From Escallonia rubra (lineage: Eukaryota; Streptophyta; Magnoliopsida; Escalloniales; Escalloniaceae): a stretch of DNA of 64,000 bases. Both the position numbers and the translations under genes were made by a program. The notes under the pieces are model-generated. The model saw nothing but the letters and a program-made list of their open reading frames with translations. It made no database searches and was not told the origin of the DNA. Positions within the stretch are counted from its first letter, which is position 1; each line of letters starts with the position of its first letter. Below, piece by piece: positions 11,849 to 59,571 of this stretch. The stretch spans positions 186,001 through 250,000 of the forward strand of contig JAVXUO010002656.1 in the NCBI GenBank assembly GCA_033065855.1. The letters are read 5' to 3'.

Positions 11849-14290
11849 CTACCTCTCCTCCCCCCCCCCCCTCACTGGTCTTGCAACATTGGCATTTTTA
11901 TTGCTTCCCACTGGTGCCCGTTGGCAGGTCCTTTTATTATGCCCAAATTGCTTACAATTTCCACACTTCAGAGTGCATGACCTTTTTCCTTCCCTAGCAG
12001 GTTCATCAGCTGCCCTCTTCCTTTCCTTTCTTGGTCTTCCAGGCAACCTCCTAAAAGGGGGAGGTTGCAAAGGATCCCCTGGAGCTGGCTCCCAGTGGGT
12101 CTCATCATGCAGTGGGTGCATAACATGACCATAAGTTTTCAAATAAGTATCCCTGTTGTAGCACCTATCCACAAACTCAACCACATTCAATCTCCTGGTG
12201 TTGATGCATGCTGCTGCATGCTTGCAAGGTATGCCTGTAAGATCCCAAACCCTACAACAACAACTTCTCCTCACTAAGTTCACAACATGCACCTTCCCAA
12301 GGTCAGATACCTCAAACTCTGTACCCCCAGCACCCATGACTATTTTACAGCACCTAGATTCAGCAACTGCCAGTTTGCATTTCTTCATTATCCTTGGAGT
12401 TACTACTTCTTCCCAAGAAGCAGCCTTTTCAAACCTTTCATGTACCTTTACCATCAGCCTAGTTCTAATGTGATCAATCATGGATAGCACATGTTTTCCC
12501 CTCAATTTCCCTAGCCAGTTGTTGAATGACTCCACCACATTACTGGTTACCTGCTCATTCTTAATAGCAGGGTCAAATGTATACCTAGCCCATCTCTCTA
12601 CTTTATGACCTTTTAACCACTCAGCTGCTTCTGGTGACAAGTCTTCCATCTGTCTCATAGCTAGCTTAAAGTCATCCACATTGTATGCCTTGGCAGCAGA
12701 CCAAAAATAGCTTTTAAGCTTCATGCCAGTGTATCTAGACCTAAAATTGCAGAAAAGATGCCTACAACACCTTCTATGAGTTGCATGTGGTATAATGTCT
12801 GCTAGGGCCACCTCAATACCCTTTATCCATCCGACAAGATCACCCATGGCTTTGGATCAGGCCCATCACCCATGATGGTATAAAGGTGATGTAGGAAAAA
12901 CCTCCAACTCTGTGTGTTCTCACTCTCAACAACAGCAAATCCCATAGGGAATAACCCATTGTTCCCATCTAAGCCCACAGCAGACAATAATACACCTCCA
13001 TAAGGCCCTTTAAGATGGCATCCATCAACTGCAAGAAATGACCTACAACCATCCTTAAAGCCATTTTGCACAGCTGCAAATGAAAAGAACAGCATATGGA
13101 AATGAGGCAAATCCAGGTTAGGTTGAACTCTTTGAGTTTCAAGCTTGAACAAGCTCCCAGGATTAGTCTTCATCACATCATGCCCATACATCCACAACTT
13201 CTTATATGACTCAGCATGAGACCCCTCAATCTTTTCTAGTGCTTTATTTTTTGCCCTGTACAACTGTATTCTATGGGCCTCTACACCATAGTTTTCTAGC
13301 AAAAGCTCTTGCAGCCCATTTATGGTAATATCAGGATTTCCCCTAATGTGCCCAAGCAGCTTCTGTGCAATCCAAGTGGAATTGGCCTCCTTGTTAGTAA
13401 TGCCCATTACACAAGAATGTTCAGGACCTAAGCTCTTGATTTTGTAAGTTTTCCCATCAGGAATAGGTGATGCAAATATCCTCCAACTACATCCAGGATT
13501 GCCACAGTGGGCAGCAACCCTGTTCTTTTCATTCCTATCTCTGACCAGCTTAAACCCAGTCTGAATACAATAATCCCTCAGAGTATTCCTAAAATGATTG
13601 ACATCTTCAAACAACAAACCCTTGTACAGTTGAATAGTTTCACCTGGCCTATGTTCAAATAGATCTCCCCTCATATATTTGTCTACATTTACTGCTTCAA
13701 CATCCAAGTTATCATCACTCTTGTACATAGGATTTTCATCTTCATCATCACAGTTGGACAACTCATGTTCACTTAATTGATCATCCTCTGTCACAGGCTC
13801 TTCATCACTTGCCTCTTCAATCACTTAATTCTTCCCTTAATTCCCAATCATTATCCTCAGAATCAGAATCATCACTAGTGTGGTGCAACTCCTCATCACT
13901 GCCATCTTCACTCTCACTCTCAGGTGCCCTACTAGTCCCAGGTCTACTGTCATTTCTAGCTGCCTCTATATTTGGTTTGGATAACTAACTACTGTAGGTT
14001 CTGCCCCAACAGTTTCTAAGAACACATGAATCTCTTCTGAATTCTCATACAACGCAAACATGTCAAGTAAGGACCTATCAGATGTTATTTCTTCCCTGAC
14101 ATTAGTTCCAGGCAAAGTATAATATATGGCAATAACTATACCTAAACTAGAGGGGAGGTCTTTCAACATAAGATCATTTACATCGGTAAGCAGATCCATA
14201 TAGTTGTATCTGTCAGGATCCACATCAGCTATGCTATCAACAATGTTACAGTAGTGGACCCTCAGTTCATATATCCTTTCAGTGCCCATT
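11849..14290 (-). pseudogene. mudrA-like: MuDR-type Mutator-like transposase, frame-broken
   Basis: Read leftward from ATG 14290 (MGTERIYELRV). An N-terminal PB1-like segment of about 105 residues is followed by a frame break near 13967. An acidic linker then breaks again near 13825. Next come the MuDR DNA-binding region (RDYCIQTGFKLVRDR, then HCGNPGCSWRI) and the MULE catalytic domain. The catalytic domain has first Asp in FLAVDGCHLKG, second Asp in WVILSD, and Glu in NVVESFNNW. A third break lies directly after the second Asp at about 12833, where the usual RQKG-type residues are missing. The tail has a SWIM finger (CRVWDLTGIPCKHA) and a CCHC knuckle (CGNCKQFGHNKRTC). The family cuts and pastes Mutator-like elements. 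The DDE residues are present but the gene is dead. Its right terminal repeat is at 15478-15591. Confidence 0.9.
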
Positions 14291-15591: not shown

Positions 15592-16240
15592 CCTTTGGTA
15601 ATTTGCCATATTTTGGTAATTTTCCTGGTAAAGTTTTTCAAATGACTTCTTAGTCCAGAAATGTAATTACAACACCTGAAAGGTTGTTTTGAAGCTGATT
15701 ACGGTGCGTTAGGGTAATAATGAATCCCTGGGGGCATTTCGGTAATTTGTCGCTCAGCGAGGGTATTTTGGTAATATAACATTGTAAAATTTTCCGACGT
15801 ACTTTTAGTTCGGGAAAGGGTGTAAGACACCCGAAAAGTTATTTTTTCCAGTTGTTCTGAGATGTTTGTTTGGGCGATGGCTGTCAGGGGGTATTTTGCA
15901 TAAGTTGGGAGTGTTTTGGTAACTTTTCCCCTTAAAATACCCTGAGGAAATATTTGGTATATAATTAACGTAATACATTTAAAAAGTGGTTTTAAAGCGG
16001 TTTTGTGGTGTTGATGGTGTAGCGGTCATCGGGGGGTATATTGGTAAATTGCCAGTTGGCTCTAAATTTTAGGGAAGTAGAATAATTAAGCGTTCGGAGT
16101 GGTGGGAAGTGAGGAATTGTTTTAATACATTGAAATAATGAGATAATGACTATTGCTAACGCGTTGATAAGCTAGGTTTAAGATCCAGTTATATTTTTGG
16201 AATGTAAATATGAGGGACATTAAGTTGGTTTAGGCTTATA
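15592..16240 (+). repeat. Long repeat family copy B; left terminal repeat of the PMD-Ulp1/FAR1 MULE
   Basis: It starts abruptly at the MuDR-element border with TTTGGTAATTTGCCA. Then come 'aattttcctggtaaagttt' and 'acacctgaaaggttgtttt', both found in reverse complement near 22720-22800. The outer part of this repeat is missing, consistent with the MuDR element having inserted in it. It leads directly to the PMD gene start at 16257, and the sister copy leads directly to the FAR1 gene start at 22521. That is the placement expected of terminal inverted repeats. Confidence 0.7.
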
Positions 16241-16256
16241 TTTTGTTCTTACAGAT

Positions 16257-19123
16257 ATGTATTTCAACCACGGACCTCATGATACATCAATCCTATACGA
16301 TGACGATGACCACGTCGCGAGGTACGTATTTGACGGTGTCAAGAGGGGTGTTTTGGAAACAATTCAAAGCACAACTTACCTCGAAGAGTGGGTACTGAAC
16401 GAGGAACAAATACAACTACTACACCGTCAAAATTTATCTATGTTCACCGATTCTGGGATATGGTCTCGACACGACGATTGCCTTATATCCGCTCTAGTTG
16501 AACGATGGACGAGCGAGAAGAACTCATTTCACTTCCGGTTTGGTGAAATGACTATTACATTAGAGGACGTCGGATTTATACTTGGAATCCCATGTCACGG
16601 CAGACCCATTACTTTGAGCAAAACATCTGCATCCATAAAGAATATGGCTAGACAGTATTTTTCGGGAATTCTGAGAGAAGCTCTTACAACAAACGCCATA
16701 AAACTTAAATGGCTGAGAGAGCAGTACGGCGAGCTACCGGATGAATACACTCATCATGATTTCGTGACGTATACGAAGGCATTCCTTCTGTATATTATTG
16801 GAGCTATATTACTTCCGATGCATTCGAAAAACACGGTGCATCCGAAGTATATGGTGTTCTTGGAGGATCTTGAGGAGATATACTCGTATTCGTGGGGTTC
16901 AGTTGTTCTTCCGCACCTATATCGAGCACTGCATAAGGCTACAAGATTGGATGCCAAGTCTATTGCCACCTGCTTGACTCTATTACAGGTAGGCGCATTT
17001 ATATTCTTGTTTGGATGTGTCTAAATATTCGTGATTAATTATTAATTCCATATAATGTTTGCATTCACAGGCTTGGTCTTACGAGAGGCTACCCACGGGT
17101 CGTCCACAACCGCGGGAATATTCTGATGAGACGTGGCCTAGGGTGTGGGCCGGAGACCAACCGGAAGAGACGGGTAAACCCTCACCACCATCTACAGTTC
17201 TATCGGGAGGAACTAGATATGCTGGATGCACCCCAGGTGACGTGGCAGCCATATGGCAAGGTGATGCAGCGGTTGGATGAGTGGTGTGGGCAACTTCCGG
17301 TGTCGTACATGCTGGCAGGTTTGGTTCGGGTGCCGCTTATTCACTTCGAAGTATGTGAGTTTCAGATGCCCGAACGAGCTATGAAGCAAGCTGGCTGTCT
17401 ACAAGGGATCCCAAAACCCGCTGTAGACATGCAGCCATACATGAGTGCTCAACTTCCGAAATTCGAGGTGCCTGATGCCTTGAATTTGTTGAGTGACGAG
17501 GTGCAGCAGTGGAATACTTGGCAAGAAACGTATGGTAGCCTTGTATCGCTCAAGGACGACATCATCAGTATCGAGGACTACCTTAAATGGTTTCTCAATG
17601 TGACGCGCACGAGGGTGAATCGCCCTTCCCGGGTGAGGCAGCCATCGTATGCGCCACGTGAGGTCTATGACCAGTTCTAGGCATTGGCCATTGTAAGTCA
17701 TGCTACTGTTGTGTTTCAATTTTTATTTGCGCACCTTAACGACCATGCCTAAAATGATGACGGTGATTTTTCTATGCATGTTTTTTAGGTTGACCAGGGC
17801 ACTGAGGTGTTCAAGCAGCTTGAGCAGTTTGACTGGTACGTTGCGCATGCTCCTGACAGTCTCAAGAGCTCCATTGAGAGGTACAAGACTGATCTTCACA
17901 ACTTTGGTGTTGTGTACCGGGGTTACCGAGGGGAGCCGTCTAGTCGCTTGCCTCCTGATGCGTACGACTCTCAACCCTAGAGTCATGTGTGGGAGCCGTC
18001 TAGTTGCTTGCCTCCTGACGCGTACGACTCTCAACCCCAGAGTCAGGTGTGGGAGCCGTCTAGTCGCTTGCCTCCTGACGCGTACGACTCTCAACCCCAG
18101 AGTCAGGTGTGGGAGCCGTCTAGTCGCTTGCCTACTTACGCGTACGACTCTCAGCGCCAGAGTCAAGTAGGATTCCAGGCGTCGCGCCCAAGCATCCGGT
18201 CGGATAAAGGACAACCGACGAAGCCATTGAGTCCGGCGAAACGGGAGTGGATCGACCGGCACTACTTCGGGCATGAGCCCGTCGATTCAACTGACTTTCC
18301 TGTTGCGGGACTTGTAGCTCACTCTGATATGAGACTGTTGGCGCCGGACACAGATATTTCGAACTGGGTCATGGACGCTTACATAGATCTGCTCCGTGTT
18401 AGAGAGCTAAGTAATAACCCCTCCCAAACTCTCAAGCTCAACATGTATCCCTCTTTTCTAGTCCCCCTCTTGGTGAATAGCATGAATGACTTCACAGCAT
18501 GGAGGAGGATGTGAGGGACAAGCAAGGGTGCATGGCAACCGTCTGCAAACGTGCTTGCCTTATTGAACTCGGACGATCAATGTCACGCATCTGAGGCAAA
18601 CCTAATCATGATACCTTGTCTTCACGGGTGCCACTTCTTCCTATTAGTTCTCCATCCAGTGAACAAAACGGTCCACATATACGATAGCCTAATGGAAGAC
18701 GGACCTGGTGGGCAGCTAGCGGAGATGTACTCCACGTACATCAATGCGGTGGTTAGTTTATATTTCTTGAGCTTCGCTCATAGTCTATTCTTCTTGTTAA
18801 GTAGGCTTGATAACTTTTTTTACTGTTGGATGCAGACTACTATCATTCCACTAGCGTGCCGACATGTTACGGGGGAAGCCATCACGAGCTCAACAATGAT
18901 AGAGCCTTGGACGGTCGTGATGATACAAAACCGACCAAAGCAATATAACAGTCATGATTGCGGGATTTATGTCCTCAAGTACATGGACTACATAGCTCGC
19001 TCGGATGTGCTCGAAAATACGTCGTGGTCTCGAAGGGATGCATTGACGTTTAGATATCGGATAGCCTGGGAGCTGAAAAAGGGTGTATCTAGACACCTTC
19101 CTTACCATTCCCCTGAGATGTAG
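16257..19123 (+). pseudogene. PMD (plant mobile domain) - Ulp1-type cysteine protease gene, decayed
   Basis: Exon 1 starts at ATG 16257 and encodes a plant mobile domain (PF10536): HDDCLISALVERW, GEMTITLEDVGFILGIPCHG. A CAG|GTAGGC donor at 16988 joins CACAG at 17070, giving AWSYERLPTGRPQ. A frame break near 17140-17165 precedes the domain's end (YREELDMLD, VPLIHFEVCEFQMPERAMKQ). A TAG occurs at 17678, then an intron to about 17789. The next part contains 20-residue repeats, a TAG at 17978, and a linker. The C-terminal Ulp1/C48 peptidase domain has candidate His in CHFFLLVLHP, Asp in IYDSL and Cys in SHDCGIYVLKY. It is interrupted by a TGA at 18512 and an intron at 18752-18835. PMD and Ulp1 genes are typical passengers of plant MULEs. 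The triad is intact but this copy is not translatable. It converges on the FAR1 gene. Confidence 0.85.
17931..18170 (+). repeat. Coding 60-bp tandem repeat (20 residues), four copies
   Basis: Exact 60-bp period starting at 17931, 17991, 18051 and 18111. Each unit encodes a Pro/Ser/Gln-rich peptide of type WEPSSRLPPDAYDSQPQ. It forms the linker between the PMD and Ulp1 parts of the gene. Near-identity of the units indicates recent expansion by slippage or unequal exchange. Confidence 0.9.
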
Positions 19124-20229: not shown

Positions 20230-22521
20230 CTAACACTCTTCCTCATCATCGTCCTCCTCGACCACACTGCCAGGTTCGATACCTAGCACTTTATAATGAT
20301 TTCTCTTGTCATGATCAGTCATCTTATTACACAACGCACACTTTCGCAATTTTTTTTGACCCGTTGCTTCTTCAATCGGATTCTTCATACGTATTGCTCG
20401 TTTTCGCCCTTTTGTTTGAGAAATAATTGGATAAAAAATGTCGTCCTCCTCACCTTGCAGGCTAGTGCTGTCAATGACTGGCTGTGAAGCTCGATTGAAT
20501 CTATCGGTTGGAGTCGTCCGAGGGTCCCGTCTTTCTGGTAATGCCATCCTAAACTGTGCATGCTTAGCCTTATCCCATGCGGCTGCTTCAACTTGATACC
20601 TGTACCCATCAAATGTTGACGCTGCATCCATTGATAAACCGTGCATGATGTTACAAAGGTGATTATATCGTAGCGTCTCAGATTGCTCGAAATCGACTGA
20701 AACATTGGGCACGTAAGGAATATGACCGTGGACTCTATTGGCTTCCTTCGTCCACCGATCCAAGATATACTCTTGAGGGATTTCACTAGCATTCTTGGCG
20801 CTAAAAACCCTCAACGCGTGTCGACAAAGTATACCTTTATGCTCAAACAGTTAAAAGTTACAATTAATAAAACCCGGTGTCCATACAAACTGCTACGGTA
20901 AAATGTCTTCTTTTCCTCGGAGCGGACGAAGAGCACGGATTGGCAAAATTCGTCACATTTGTCAAAGCATAAACCTTGAGGTCCCTGGTGGAATACTCGT
21001 GCAACTTTGTCATGCTATATTGATTCGACTTTAGTAGTTCCTCTTGGAACTGTCTAAACATTTCCTTCGTATAGACTTGAGCCGCATGAGCCTCCAAAGG
21101 TGAAAAAACTAATATGGCTCTTTCTCTGTAAACTGTAGCCGCGTTGGCTTCTCTCTCAAGGTAAACTTTCCTGTCAAGGGCTTTCTGCATCTCTAGTACG
21201 AACTTTGTTATACTTGAAGAATGGCCTACGTACCCATCAAAGAATGAATTCATACCTTCGCTTCTCGAGGTCGTAGTCACTCCTGCTGCAAAAAACTTCT
21301 TGGTATAGGCACCGACCCATTGTGTCTTGATCTCATACAACAATTGTAACCACTCATGATTGTGCAAATAGTAGTCATCGATTAACTTGGCCCACCTCTC
21401 CTCGAACACATCTATCGTCAAAGATTTCTTCACACATGTATTAAAGTCAGTCTTGAATGTCGGATGGTTTGCATATACATTGTGAAGCCGTTCGGGATAT
21501 TTGTTGCTTATGTGCCATGTGCACAGGCCATGGTGAGTATCTGGCAGGACCTTAGCGATTGCATTTTTCATTGCCAAATCTTGGTCGGTGATGATGGTCT
21601 TTGGAGGAATATGATACACTGTTTTATGCCACGTTTCAAATAACCAGGTAATTGACTCCTCCGTCTCATCCCTAAGCAGGGCAAAGCCAAACAAGATTGA
21701 CTGATAGTGGTGGTTCACCCCGGTGAACGGAGCAAAAGGCATAGAGTACTTATTTGTGCGGTATGTGGTGTCAAACGTCACAACATCCCCAAAATTTTGG
21801 TAAGCAGCTCTAGAACGGGCATCCGCCCAAAATATAGTACTAATGTGGTTCTCGTCATCCAGTTAGAGACTGTAGAAAAAGCCAGAATTCTCACTCTGAA
21901 GGCTCCTGAAGAGATTAAGTGTAGCTTGAGAATCACTCTTACCGAAAGACTCTTTCCTCTGAACACAAAGATCATTTCGAAGGTCAACTTCGTTGAAACT
22001 CAACTTGTCAATCCCCCCAACATGGCTTGAGAGAACCCCCATCATTCTAGAAGGTGAAATTTTAGCCTCGGCCATTGTAAATATCAGTTCCCTGTTAGCC
22101 GTGCCTATTTGTCGGTGCTGATGAATTTGACCAATCTTACTAGGGGTCATCAACTGATGATTATGGGTCAAATCCTCTCCCGTCACAACCCATTGGTTTT
22201 CATTTTTCCGGTGTACTGCATACACATGGGCCTTGCAGCCGGTACCGGAAATGTGTCTTGTTTTCGTTGTCTTGATGGCCCTTTATCACTGATCCGAACA
22301 ACCGGGGCTACATGCGGTGCTCCTCTATGACACTCAAATAGTCTTCCACAAATTTGATCTGTATTCGCCCGTTTTCTAGTCGTCTTAATTCTAATACCGA
22401 AACCTATCGTTTTCGAATATGCTCTATAGTATGCTTCAACTTCGTCCAGTCTTTGAAAAACTTGACCCAAGTAAGGTGGATCAGAATCTTCACAAAAATT
22501 ATTTCCTCCAATTACATCCAT
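20230..22521 (-). pseudogene. FAR1/FHY3-type MULE transposase, decayed
   Basis: Minus strand from ATG 22521. A FAR1 DNA-binding domain comes first (EVEAYYRAYSKTIGFGIRI), with a frame break near 22200-22225 before NQWVVTGEDLTHNH. A TAA lies at 21861. The MULE DDE domain has first Asp in TFDTTYRTNKY, second Asp in TIITDQDLAMKNAI, CTWHISNKYP, and Glu in SRSEGMNSFF. A further frame change near 20865 and a TAA at 20851 fall in the SWIM finger (FEHKGILCRHALRVF). The tail has RKCALCNKMTDHDKRNH and an acidic C-terminus ending at 20230. FAR1-type proteins are Mutator-like transposases from which the light-signalling factors FHY3/FAR1 were domesticated. Closeness to a long terminal repeat and several inactivating changes mark this one as a transposon copy. 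Confidence 0.88.
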
Positions 22522-28379: not shown

Positions 28380-28525
28380 TTTCTGGTGTCCTAGTCGTAG
28401 GGGAACCACACCAATCCATCCCGAACTTGGTGGTTAAACTCTACTGCAGTGACGATGCTGTAGGGGAGGTCCACCGAAAAATAGCTGGATGCCAGTATGA
28501 TAAAAAGCTTAACACCTCCCATTCT
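28380..28525 (+). rRNA. rrn5 (pseudogene): Plastid 5S rRNA copy in nuclear DNA (NUPT)
   Basis: About 120 bases (to about 28499) correspond to chloroplast 5S rRNA almost throughout: TTCTGGTGTCCTAG, CACACCAATCCATCCCGAAC, TTGGTGGTTAAACTCTACTG, then GTAGGGGAGGTCC and AAAATAGCT. The next 25 bases ('ataaaaagcttaacacctcc') match the plastid sequence downstream of rrn5. Scattered substitutions (for example ggatgccagta for cgacgccagga) show it is not functional. It is far from any plastid context. It lies beside the NLR pseudogene, so it is a small organelle-to-nucleus transfer. Confidence 0.9.
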
Positions 28526-53834: not shown

Positions 53835-54410
53835 TACCCCTCGGGACAAAAGTCAAGGCCACAAATCCCCAAAGAGTCGACCCCTATGGAACAAAGGTTA
53901 AGGCCACAAGTTTCTAGGGGCCTCCTATCTATGGAACAAGGGTCAAGGCCACAAGTTCCTGAGAGCATCCCGTCTATGGAACAAAGGTCAATGCCACAAG
54001 TCCCTGAGGGGTCAGCCCCTATGGAACAAAGGTTAAGGCCACAGGTTCCTAGGGGCATGCCATCTACGGGACAAGGGTCAAGGCCACAGATTCATAAGGG
54101 CATGCCATATACGGCATAAAAGTTGAGGCCACAAGTTCTTAAAGGCCACTCTCCTGCATAAGATAGGCCACCCACAAACTTATACCTCTTTGGGACACAG
54201 GCTACGACCAAAAATCCCTAAGGGGTCAGTCCTCAAGGAACAAAGGTGAAGGCCACAGGTTCCTAGGGGCTCTTCACTTGGGCTACGGCCACAGTTTCCC
54301 CAGGGGTCACCCCTTTTGGAACATAGGCTACGGCCTCGAGTTTTCAGGCGTCCACCACTTGTGGAAAATAGGCCACGGCCTCAATTTCCCAAAGGGCATT
54401 ATCATGTGAA
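53835..54410 (+). repeat. 45-bp coding tandem repeat (15 residues) in the retrotransposon leader
   Basis: 'atggaacaaagg' starts units at 53886, 53931, 53976 and 54021 with an exact 45-bp period. Diverged units continue to about 54410. Each unit encodes a peptide of type MEQRLRPQVPRGMPS. The frame beginning near 53757 reads through the best units and stops at 54117. Confidence 0.88.
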
Positions 54411-55035
54411 GCATTGGATTAAGGGTCCGTATCCTATAGCCTATGGGGAGAAGGCGCCCGACACAGTAAAGCCACTGGGGTATAAGCTAAAGCTGCATCC
54501 AGTAAGAACCCCTGGACCTCGCCAGGATAACCCACGAGGATGTTTCTTGTCTGCTCAGGTACGCCGTGAAGCGATGACTGGACTACCAAAGGGTGTCCTT
54601 TTCGAAAAACATATTGGGTCCTAAAAGTGTCCATTTGGAAATAATCAGCATGGACAGGAACCAGTAAAAATACAAGTAAATCAACCAAGAAATGTTGGTG
54701 AAATTAAAGTCCTCTATAGGGCCAAGACTTTGGAAGCCAATGTCGAACCAAACAGGCAGGTGCCGTCAGGAAACTCCACGCGATATATCCCACATGTCTG
54801 GCTATGCAAACATGTTGAGTTTGTTTCTACAATGGTTGGAGGGTCAACTCCAGTGGGGCATAAGGACGGATCTACTTCTCAAAATCAGTCATCCCAGACT
54901 GATGCAGCCGCCATAGCTACTAGTCTAAATAAGACATTGAGCCTTGAAACAAGTAAGGTAAGGCCGACAGAGTCACTGGTATTTGGAAATGAAGCAAGGA
55001 AATGACAAAATCGCCAGCCAAAACCTAAAAGGAAC

Positions 55036-56838
55036 GTGAGGGAAGAAGTGCGTGTGGTTGATAGTCAAAGTTCCACGGCTTCAAGCGCTGACCTGAGGAA
55101 GAAGAACCCAAGGAAAAATAAGAGTACGGTACCTCAAGAGGACTGCTCAGTTCGTGTAACCCGCTCTATGGCAGCCAAAGGGGTACCTGTCGATGGGGCT
55201 ATTAGTCCATTGTTTATGGACGTGCCTGATAAGTTGGCATCTCCTGAAAGTGCCTCAACTACTCGGACTTCTTCCCCTTCTTCCAACGAGAATACCGAAC
55301 TAGGTCAAAATTTAACACCAAATGATAAAAGTGAAGATAACTTCTCTTTTGATGACAAGCTTACTCGCCTTGAAGTTCAGATAGACCATCAGATGGTTGT
55401 GATGATGGCGTAGATAGAAGGCCTAACAACTTAATCATCAAAAGCTACGACCAAGAAAAAGTCATCATCTTACCATGACAAATCAAGGCGTTATGATCAA
55501 GCAAAAGGCTTTACAACCATGGGACCAAACCATATGAGAGGTAATGGTTATGCCAACCATAGCGCCAAACCTTTCGGGACATCATATGCAGAGGCCAAGA
55601 CAAGTCAAACCCGCAACCTTCATGCTACAAGAGGCCCTAAAAAACATCACCAACCCAGTGGAAGTTTGGACCCAAACCTCTTATCTTATATTGACAGTAC
55701 GTATAGCCAAAAGGGAAACGAGGAAAGTCGAAGATGGGACCACTATCACTGCTAGCTTGGTAACAAAACCATACCCGTCCTGGGTAGACCAAGTCCCTTT
55801 TCCACCCATTTTCACTCAACCAGACTTCTGAAGATTTAACGGGAAAGGAAATCCAAAAGAACATGTAGCTCATTTCATTGCTCGTTTAGCCTATTTAGGC
55901 GAAAATAAGCTATTATGGCTGCAATTATTTGTGCAATCCTTAGAAGGACCTGCTTTCATATGGTACTCTAATATGCCAGAGGGGTCGATTCGTGACTGGG
56001 ACGCCCTGATTAGGAAATTTTATTAGCAGTTCAGTAATACAGAATGATCAGTGAGTATAGCAGAGCTGATCAATACAAGGCAGTGTGAAAATGAGTCAGC
56101 ATCCGATTTCATTGCAAGGTGGCAAACTCTCACCTCTAGTTGTTCTCATAATTTCAACCAGAGTGAATTGCTACAAATACACCTCTACAATTTTAGGCAT
56201 GAGCTTTTTGTACACCTTCTGTCCCAGACCTTTGACGGGTTCAATGACTTGTGCACTAGAGCGCATGATCTTGAAATGCACCTTGCTCTCAAGAAGACAA
56301 GGTCTAAAGCGGCCGAAAGAGTCAATACGACAGTTGTAGGAATGACGAAAAAATAACTTGCCAGTGACAATCAAAGTGATGTTGAAAATGCATATAATAG
56401 GCCTTCCTTAAAAGAAAAAAATCAAGAGGAAATTTTCCTTTCCCGACGAAATCATCAAAGAACTCTTCAATGGGCTGGTGATGGAAGGCCTTATAACTCT
56501 ACCAAAGATTAAAAGGCCCGATGAGGAAGGAAAGAATGACAATCCTAACTATTGCCCTTATCATCACGTCATCAGTCACCCCATTGATAAGTGCTTCACT
56601 TTGAAGGAAAAAATCCAATGCCTAATTGATGATGGGGATATAATCATCCCGAAAGTTGAGAAATATTCAACAAATACAGTCACTTCGACATTGTGCCCTG
56701 AACATAATTGTAAAACCTCTCGCAACGTGATGAATGAAATTATGCAAAATTATACTAATGATAAGGATAAGAAACAAATGCGTAACATAGAGTGTCAACG
56801 GGACTCGGAACAAACATCCTATCTTGAGAAAATAAAAG
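55036..56838 (+). pseudogene. gag: Ty3-type gag polyprotein, decayed
   Basis: An N-terminal region with VRVTRSMAAKGVPVDG and a Ser/Thr-rich part is followed by a Retrotrans_gag domain (PF03732) at about 55830-56330: RFNGKGNPKEHVAHF, LWLQLFVQSLEGPAFIWY, IRDWDALIRKFY, SVSIAELINTRQ, SASDFIARWQTL, CTRAHDLEMHLA. After a stop at 56355 the downstream gag part is open: FSFPDEIIKEL, ITLPKIKRPDE, YCPYHHVISHPIDKCFTLKEKI. This is the conserved C-terminal gag segment that precedes protease in autonomous relatives. In-frame stops lie at about 55411, 55829, 56023 and 56046. Gag would form the particle shell. Here the frame runs straight on into F-box coding sequence instead of protease. Confidence 0.88.
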
Positions 56839-57510
56839 AGCAGGTCAGCCTTACAGATGCACTCCCAGCAGACATCGTACGACACATATTGCAAAAAGTT
56901 GGTGAAAAATCAATTCAAAACTATTGCGCTGCTAGGATGTGTTCTCACGAAATGGAAGAACTATCAAAAGACCCAGTCGTCGTCCGCTTTTTGCCTTTGG
57001 ATGAGGTCCCCTGGCACAACCGATACACCGGTAGCCTTGGCGCAAGATACTTTCTGCAAGTCTGCACTAATAATGGAAATGCGCATGCACTCTTCCATGA
57101 AGGTTTTATGGCCTATTTCATTAATGGTTACCCTGAACATGGATGTGAGCTATTACAAAGAGCAGTCCAAAAAAAACCATTTGGGTGCCAAATATATATG
57201 TGCTATCACCTGCCTTTGTGTGCCTGAACCATCGACTTATAAATGGGGGCTCGACACTATGATGACTATCTTGCAATGTCCTGAAACGAAAAAAGGACCC
57301 GTGCATTGGAGGAAAAAGGTCAAAGAAATGTGTTGGTACCGCATTAGCACATTATCTTTCCTTCCCCTTCATCCAGGAAAACTTTGTTATGAGAAAGGAA
57401 ATGCGCATTGGGACATTATCAAGCATATCCCGGACACACAAGAGATCGATTTTGCATGCGAAGAATGCACCTTATACTGCAATTTGGTGATGCTATGTCT
57501 TTTGAAATGA
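56839..57510 (+). pseudogene. Captured F-box gene (At2g35280-like) fused in frame behind gag
   Basis: The open frame of the gag C-terminus (56478-57227) continues without interruption into an F-box domain starting LPADIVRHIL (56862), then CAARMCSHEMEELSKDPVVVRFLPL. Next is the Sel1-like middle typical of At2g35280-type proteins (CTNNGNAHALFHEGFMAYF, CELLQRAVQK). At 57172-57179 a run of eight A residues shifts the frame. The neighbouring frame carries the expected continuation (NHLGAKYICAITCLC, KGPVHWRKKVKEM) and the family's Cys-rich tail (CEECTLYCNLVMLC), with stop at 57510. Such proteins are predicted SCF ubiquitin-ligase adaptors. The intron-free form fits capture of an RNA copy, or of a single-exon gene. 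Attribution to the family is from motif memory, not from a search. Confidence 0.75.
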
Positions 57511-57529
57511 GAAAGAAATTGTGGAGCAC

Positions 57530-57838
57530 GAAAAGAATGCCCGTTAGGCTGAAAACCCTGAAAAGGGCGGTCTAGGCAAAAGTTAGGGTGCAAAGAAGGA
57601 AAAAATAAAGAAGAAGAAAGCTTGCTAGGCTGAAAACCCTGAAAGGGGCGGCCTAGGCAAAAGTTAGGGCGCAAAGAAAAAAAAACCAAAAAAAAAAGGG
57701 CTCGCTAGGCTAAACACCCTAAAATGGGCGGTCTAGGCAAAAATTAGGGCACAAAAAAAAAAAAGAAAAGAATGCCCGTTAGGCTGAAAACCCTGAAAAG
57801 GGCGATCTAGGCAAAAGTTAGGGCATAAAAAAAAAGTA
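57530..57838 (+). repeat. ~75-90 bp tandem repeat, four copies
   Basis: 'gttaggctgaaaaccctgaa' (first G variable) begins copies near 57542, 57626, 57705 and 57777. Each continues 'gggcggtctaggcaaaagtt' and 'agggcgcaaag' plus an A/G-rich spacer. Such arrays are common between gag/pol and the 3' LTR of plant Tat/Ogre-like Ty3 elements. Confidence 0.88.
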
Positions 57839-57844
57839 TAGAAA

Positions 57845-58175
57845 AAAAATTTGAACTACGTGATGACTTGATCCTTCGGGTACATAGGCAGCTTCGGGCA
57901 TATTCCTCAGGTTCAGTCACAATAATCAAAAGAAAATTTATTCTTCCGTAAAAAAAAGAAGAAGAAAAAAAGAGTTGAACTACGTGATGACTTGATCCTT
58001 TGGGTACATAGGCAGCTTGGGGCATATTCCTCAGGTTCAGTCACAATAATCAAAAGAAAATCTATTTCTCATAATAAAAAAAAAATTAGAGTCTTTAAAC
58101 TACGTGATGATTTGATCCTTTGGACACGTAGGCAGCTTAGGGCATATTCCCCATGTTCAGTCGCAGAAAAAAAGA
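57845..58175 (+). repeat. ~120-bp tandem repeat, three copies
   Basis: 'aactacgtgatgacttgatcc' starts near 57854, 57978 and 58098. Each continues 'gggtacataggcagctt', 'gggcatattcctcaggttca' and an A-rich spacer. It is the 3' counterpart of the preceding array. A weaker degenerate copy follows to about 58260. Confidence 0.88.
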
Positions 58176-58555
58176 AGAAGAAGAAAAAAAAGAGTAGTTC
58201 TTCCAACAAAAGTTGTTGAGCTACACGATGCCATGATCACATGCAACTCAAAGCATATTTCAAAGGCAAGATGAATCTTCACAAAAGAAGTTCTCAAGTG
58301 ACAACAAGGGACCTCAACGACTTTCTCAATAGTATTACAATAGCTCAAATGGATATTTGAGTTGATCGTGAATGACAAGAAGAATTCTTGCAGGAAAAAG
58401 GAAAAATGTATTGCACGAGAACAAGTAACGCAAGGTTTATGACCTACTTCATGATTGTTGCCGTTCGGAGTGTTTGGACCAAAAGAGAGAACTGAAAAAG
58501 TTGAGCTACCAAATGAGTCGTGATCCGGTCTTTTCTCAAATTCAAAAAGTCTGAA

Positions 58556-58569
58556 TCACTAGGGGTATT
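58556..58569 (+). promoter_or_regulatory. Polypurine tract candidate
   Basis: A short 'actaggggta' purine-rich segment lies immediately upstream of the 3' LTR (58570), where plus-strand priming occurs in LTR elements. It is weak as polypurine tracts go. Confidence 0.4.
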
Positions 58570-59566
58570 TGTTGGCACTAAAATTTTGACCCAATATATA
58601 TATATATATATAGAATATAAGTAAATGAGGGATAGATAAAGAAGTCTTCCATTTAGCGAGCCCAATAATTTTCAGAATGGCCTGTTTAATGAGTCCATGT
58701 TGCATGAAGGCCTTGATGGGCCATTGGTTTAGATTGAACAATGGGCCATGCATTTTGAATTTACCTGAACCATGAGCCCGTGTAAGTCTTCAGATTTGGT
58801 CTTAGACTGGAATGCAACTTGGTCATTAAGGGATATGATCGAGGATGAAGTGATATGATACAGTGGAGGTTTATCTTTTAGGAGTTAAAGTCCTCCACAA
58901 ATTGGACTTGGTCTTTATTATAAAAAAACTGCAGGAGGTCTCTCGGCTGAGGGAGCAAAAGAAAAAAGAAAAGAAAGGCAACCAAAGGCCTCTTAGCAGA
59001 AACAAAAAGGAGGGAGGAGAATAAGAAAAGAGAGGAAGAAGAGTCCTCTCGGTAGAAAGAAAAAAAAAGACAAAAAAAGGAGAAAAAGGACAGAGGAGAG
59101 GAGTCAACAAAGAAGGAACCAGAGAAGGGCTTAGCAAAAGCAAAGAAGAAGACTCAACGAAAAGAAAAGAAACAGGAGAAAGTGAAGTTGTTGGCTTGCG
59201 GCACAAAAGAAAAGGAAGAGAAAAGAAAAAGAGGGAAGTATGGGATCAAGGTGAATCCCATTTCTTTTCCTTATTTCTAACTTTTTTTTTAATTCATGTA
59301 AAATTTCAAAGTACTTTTCATGATGTATTAAGATTCATGAAGAAATGAAAGTTTCATATACCTATTTTCGTGTGTTATTTATGTTTGATTTGTTTATTTG
59401 TATTTCTTTAATCGGATGTTGTCGTGAATGTAATTAACGATTGACTTTTTAGTCATCCAGAATATGAATCCACTATATAAAATAGTAAACGTCGTTATAT
59501 ATGTACGACGGGATTTAGTGACGCAAGATTGGACGTTAATCAATAGAGGCGATAAATGTGTCATCA
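58570..59566 (+). repeat. 3' LTR (997 bp, MITE-free)
   Basis: TGTTGGCACTAAAATTTTGAC to GTGTCATCA, followed by the CACAG duplication. It has an AT run near 58592-58611 and a longer purine-rich middle (58950-59190) than the 5' LTR. It retains the undisturbed target 'aaagaagtcttcc' of the MITE found in the 5' LTR. Confidence 0.92.
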
Positions 59567-59571
59567 CACAG

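Follow-up and report, generated by a model that had tools for sequence, protein, structure and literature searches.

A locus of Escallonia rubra raises the question of whether a plant F-box gene was captured by an LTR retrotransposon and, if so, whether it still forms a protein fused to gag. The window, i.e. the whole stretch of 64,000 nt analysed on contig JAVXUO010002656.1, contains an LTR retrotransposon at 51611-59566, whose features are listed in Table 1. The host gene capture is real and of an ordinary kind, and the capturing element is now decayed.

Boundaries and internal organisation of the element

The element is delimited as an LTR retrotransposon, both LTRs having TG...CA ends and the whole being enclosed by a target-site duplication. 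Matching LTRs and CACAG duplications had been reported in an earlier note on this sequence and are both present; the LTR pair stands, with the correction that the 5' LTR begins at 51611 (pattern search with 1 mismatch, for which a mean of 0.01 chance matches is expected) and is interrupted by a 564-bp insertion. A 5' LTR truncated at 52239 was also considered and was dropped, its first 64 bp being present at 51611. The 5' and 3' LTRs share 90.9% identity over 894 aligned sites (K2P 0.097, 10 gaps), the first 5' piece having been entered in this alignment as 51611-51675, i.e. with one base of the insert included. Judging from its inverted ends and flanks, the insert is probably a small DNA transposon that arrived later than the retroelement. 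Its core is rich in GGTGGC. By eye, TGGCACGCCCAATGGGAC, which follows the 5' LTR, and AGGGGTATT, which precedes the 3' LTR, are a candidate primer binding site and a candidate polypurine tract, respectively.

The internal region was scanned against Pfam by means of its stop-to-stop ORFs that have a length of 60 aa or more and lie wholly within 53075-58569 (n=32). TPR_27 was the sole match reaching its cut-off, none of the 32 ORFs gave a domain of protease, reverse transcriptase, RNase H or integrase, and those in antisense orientation gave no match at or above cut-off. These results support the view that the F-box/TPR sequence occupies the place where pol would be expected. The 45-bp tandem repeat of the leader ORF (overall 53846-54391) encodes RPQVP-type units. 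Further downstream, gag is present as remnants: both matches of the core to Retrotrans_gag fall below the cut-off of 24.1 bits and its frame contains stops at 56024, 56045 and 56354, while the C-terminal tail, which has no Pfam match reaching cut-off, is assigned to gag on the assumption that its cysteine- and histidine-containing motif is of the Ty3 type. The element is, we infer, non-autonomous and of Ty3 type.

Table 1. Features of the LTR retrotransposon and of the sequence captured in it
Feature	Position	Strand	Basis or remark
Target-site duplication CACAG, left	51606-51610		sequence
5' LTR, in two pieces (51611-51674 and 52239-53074)	51611-53074	+	pattern search and alignment to 3' LTR
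Nested 564-bp insert splitting the 5' LTR, putative, DNA-transposon-like	51675-52238		inverted ends GGGTCTGTTTGACA / TGTCAAACGGCCC, GAA flanks
Primer-binding-site-like stretch, immediately downstream of the 5' LTR	53080-53097	+	role suggested by position
Leader ORF remnants upstream of gag	53709-55413	+	ORF list; no Pfam match reaching cut-off
45-bp coding tandem repeats in leader ORF	53846-54138 and 54281-54391	+	repeat analysis
gag core remnant	55832-56356	+	Retrotrans_gag PF03732, two collinear pieces, 19.6 and 14.5 bits
gag C-terminal tail, YCPYH...HPIDKC motif	56412-56720	+	frame differs from that of gag core; 3' border approximate
F-box and first half of TPR_27	56850-57176	+	F-box 56862-56978 (PF00646, 18.2 bits); TPR_27 57033-57173
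Eight-A run, change of reading frame	57169-57176	+	sequence
Second half of TPR_27, Cys-rich tail, TGA 57508-57510	57145-57510	+	PF23310 match, next frame
3' tandem repeats with periods of 81 and 124 bp	57530-58162	+	start 19 bp past the F-box stop
3' LTR	58570-59566	+	alignment, pattern search
Target-site duplication CACAG, right	59567-59571		sequence

No further copy of either the element or the F-box sequence was found elsewhere in the window. Comparison of the window with itself brought up the element, its two LTRs, its tandem repeats and, within the insert of the 5' LTR, a palindromic match about 50 bp long, and matches to the F-box frames elsewhere in the window all had E values of 0.83 or worse. 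Other features of the window include: a Mutator-type transposase remnant on the minus strand (11849-13824), with DBD_Tnp_Mut, MULE and SWIM above cut-off and Transposase_mut below it; on the plus strand (16224-19123), two ORFs with a plant mobile domain (PMD) and, after them, a Ulp1-type C48 peptidase ORF, all of which are possibly parts of one mobile element; an ORF with a MULE transposase domain (107 bits) on the minus strand (20230-21862), next to an ORF with a SWIM finger slightly under cut-off, both of which we take to be FAR1-like; and a 5S rRNA match (28382-28497; 43 bits, gathering score 38), which presumably resembles plastid more than nuclear 5S rRNA and is perhaps a nuclear insertion of plastid DNA.

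The F-box/TPR segment and its junction with gag

TPR_27 (PF23310) is a profile of plant tetratricopeptide repeats. It matches the segment in two pieces, namely in a first frame at 37.6 bits (E 1.8e-9, profile positions 12-58 of 110, cut-off 27) and in the next frame at 16.1 bits, below cut-off (E 0.0093, profile positions 51-109 of 110). The two matches are collinear, meet at the eight-A run and lie on the same strand as gag. Upstream of them, the F-box domain (PF00646) is matched at 18.0-18.9 bits, under its cut-off of 20.5, and the further Pfam matches that these frames gave (DUF4422, SVA and Poxv_Bcl-2-like) are weak and below cut-off. Judging from its predicted translation, the segment is related to plant F-box/TPR proteins and carries a frameshift. 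The proposal that a host-like F-box sequence lies inside the LTR element is thereby upheld by the TPR_27 match, with the F-box match remaining sub-cut-off. A single slip in a run of eight A had also been proposed to separate the two halves; this slip is confirmed and its position, given previously as 57172-57179, is corrected to that shown in Table 1, and the second half, including the Cys-rich tail, does continue in the next frame up to the TGA. The label At2g35280-like, which was attached to the segment in the earlier note, is treated here as an assumption; a literature search found no paper that pairs the name At2g35280 with 'F-box'. Searches by sequence matched no solved structure at E up to 1, and in viral contigs 16 stretches fitted a pattern, none of which was a relative by tblastn.

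A reading frame that begins just downstream of a stop at 56409 and remains open over 56412-57224 (271 codons) joins the gag tail (PDEIIKEL ... HPIDKCFTLKEKI) to the F-box and TPR_27. It closes at a stop at 57225, and the next frame along is open from 56836 to the final TGA (224 codons). When the internal region was modelled by first-order Markov controls (three plus-strand frames, n=1000), the longest open run averaged 107 codons with a maximum of 262; runs of at least 271 codons were never obtained (0/1000) and runs of at least 224 codons were obtained in 2/1000. The first in-frame ATG, at 56481, would give a predicted product of 248 aa comprising the gag tail, the F-box and half of the TPR domain. 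With a GC content of 0.39-0.44, composition fails to distinguish the gag from the F-box segments, so that the 5' junction can be placed only between about 56690 and 56850.

Thus the claim of an in-frame joining of gag and F-box holds for the gag C-terminal tail but not for the gag core, which lies in another frame, and is broken by the three stops mentioned above; the frame of the tail starts past the stop at 56409. At the other end, the F-box/TPR sequence does not lie in a single uninterrupted frame. The proposed fusion of Gag and F-box is broken on either side.

Age, decay and competing explanations

The LTR divergence (K2P) corresponds to an age of about 4-12 million years at substitution rates assumed to be 4e-9 to 1.3e-8 per site per year, and the change expected since insertion was taken as half of that divergence. 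Over the F-box reading (1086 nt counted), 2.1 stops were expected and none was found (P about 0.12), and the single frameshift compares with an expectation of 1.8, 3.0 or 6.1 indels according to gap class, giving joint P values for stops and indels of 0.055, 0.023 or 0.002, in a test that is biased by the F-box stretch having been picked for being open. In the frames of gag (879 nt, excluding stops), 1.7 stops were expected and 55832-56399 alone holds 3, whereas the part at 55435-55752 is bounded by two stops and is therefore stop-free by construction. The low damage of the F-box segment may mean that the F-box joined an already decayed gag, that it was constrained in the past, or that an open stretch was selected for analysis. 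The element appears to be a decayed pseudogene at present, presumably devoid of function.

Most probably the locus is an old non-autonomous Ty3-type LTR retrotransposon that carries a transduced fragment of a host gene. In an ancestor, the mRNA of a host F-box/TPR gene probably joined the RNA of the element by template switching during reverse transcription, or by read-through; the captured fragment would have replaced pol between gag and the 3' repeats, and the chimera, mobilised by enzymes supplied in trans, would have been inserted here with duplication of CACAG and have been decaying ever since. Capture at the RNA level and trans-mobilisation are the steps that we infer; the host-like coding sequence itself lies within the LTRs in sense orientation, as in Bs1-type transduction. 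A separate entry of the F-box sequence, by DNA-level rearrangement or as a retrocopy into a resident element and with no transduction, would agree with a gag that seems more decayed than the F-box and hence with a later arrival of the latter. It is nevertheless an unlikely course of events, as the segment, in sense orientation and in frame with the gag tail, takes up the space from that tail to the 3' repeats, and as neither a poly(A) nor a flanking 9-mer repeat surrounds it: no run of at least seven A occurs between 57510 and the repeats, and 56661-56860 and 57481-57640 have no 9-mer in common. There is therefore no sign of a LINE-type insertion, and insertion of a retrocopy in this manner was rejected on the same grounds. 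That the chimera is an artefact, in which assembly joined an F-box pseudogene to an element bearing gag, is barely credible, given a single frame that crosses the junction, matching LTRs and duplications that enclose both parts, and 0 N in the window.

The remaining explanations attribute an activity to the sequence. In a functional reading, which takes in the idea of the earlier note that a Gag-F-box fusion could tether an SCF adaptor to retroelement particles, the Gag part would join the particles and the F-box would recruit SKP1/SCF and alter the turnover of particle or host proteins. This reading could draw on the 271-aa open frame linking gag tail and F-box, on the in-frame ATG and on lesions fewer than the neutral expectation; it is nonetheless highly improbable, with the gag core in a different frame and carrying stops, the TPR part cut by the frameshift, the F-box match under its Pfam cut-off and LTRs that are 9% diverged. 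A particle-bound SCF adaptor would in fact lack the Gag core as well as part of the TPR domain. Equally remote is the idea that this copy has decayed while a non-autonomous family keeps a selected gag-tail/F-box module that recruits an SCF ligase to particles or to host silencing proteins; the present case would gain greater importance only if other copies had the same junction under purifying selection. It is also improbable, though a little less so, that the remnant, no longer coding for protein, acts on the F-box family of its parent by way of RNA driven by the LTR, for instance by giving rise to small RNAs. The sense orientation under the 5' LTR would suit such a role and a small-RNA analysis of LTR-captured genes is mentioned in the abstract of PMC3726574, but the 5' LTR is itself interrupted by the 564-bp insert.

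Comparison with known captures by plant LTR elements

Transduction of host sequence by maize Bs1 was reportedly the subject of Elrouby and Bureau (2010). As described in the accessible parts of the sources, Bs1 is an LTR element that has fragments of host genes fused to sequence derived from gag (PMC8616336, PMC5408686, PMC7264820), with three host fragments and a chimera reported to be expressed at the protein level (PMC8616336), and template switching can account for such chimeras (PMC5408686). The element of E. rubra resembles Bs1, as far as these parts go, in that host-like sequence is joined to gag-derived sequence inside an LTR element, and differs from it in having one F-box/TPR fragment, which is in frame with the gag tail only and is frameshifted.

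Tandem repeats in the 3' internal region, a frequent Tat-type trait, are present here. In Ty3/gypsy Tat-Retand elements, according to the available text of PMC11963269, the stretch that separates the coding region from the 3' LTR frequently, though not universally, holds tandem repeats, and its reference list names, for coffee, an 82-bp repeat that is typical of the 3' ends of Tat elements. The period of 81 bp found here is close to that of the coffee repeat, a likeness by period alone; unlike the Tat-Retand elements so described, the present element has no detectable pol and is therefore not assignable to a lineage by its reverse transcriptase.

Furthermore, captured genes inside LTR elements are recorded in the portions of the literature that were available: 672 are given for rice and 1343 for sorghum (PMC7264820), a high share of the rice LTR-captured genes being pseudogenes (PMC3726574); about 72% of the retroduplicated NLRs of pepper lie within elements that lack coding potential for gag or pol (PMC5664825); and in Thlaspi an F-box family 'LTR-gene' is located within an LTR element (PMC8764390). 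F-box is not mentioned in the main text of PMC3726574, nor in that of PMC5664825, and no Gag-F-box fusion appears in the titles or abstract openings among the matches listed, from an incomplete coverage of the literature. All these captured genes share with the E. rubra sequence the location of a host gene inside an LTR element, whereas the host fragment is here in the frame of the gag tail, a junction not described in the available portions of PMC3726574, PMC5664825 and PMC8764390. Host gene capture by plant LTR elements, also of F-box genes, is already in print, and the element of E. rubra adds one more case to it, that of an F-box/TPR gene captured in frame with the gag tail.
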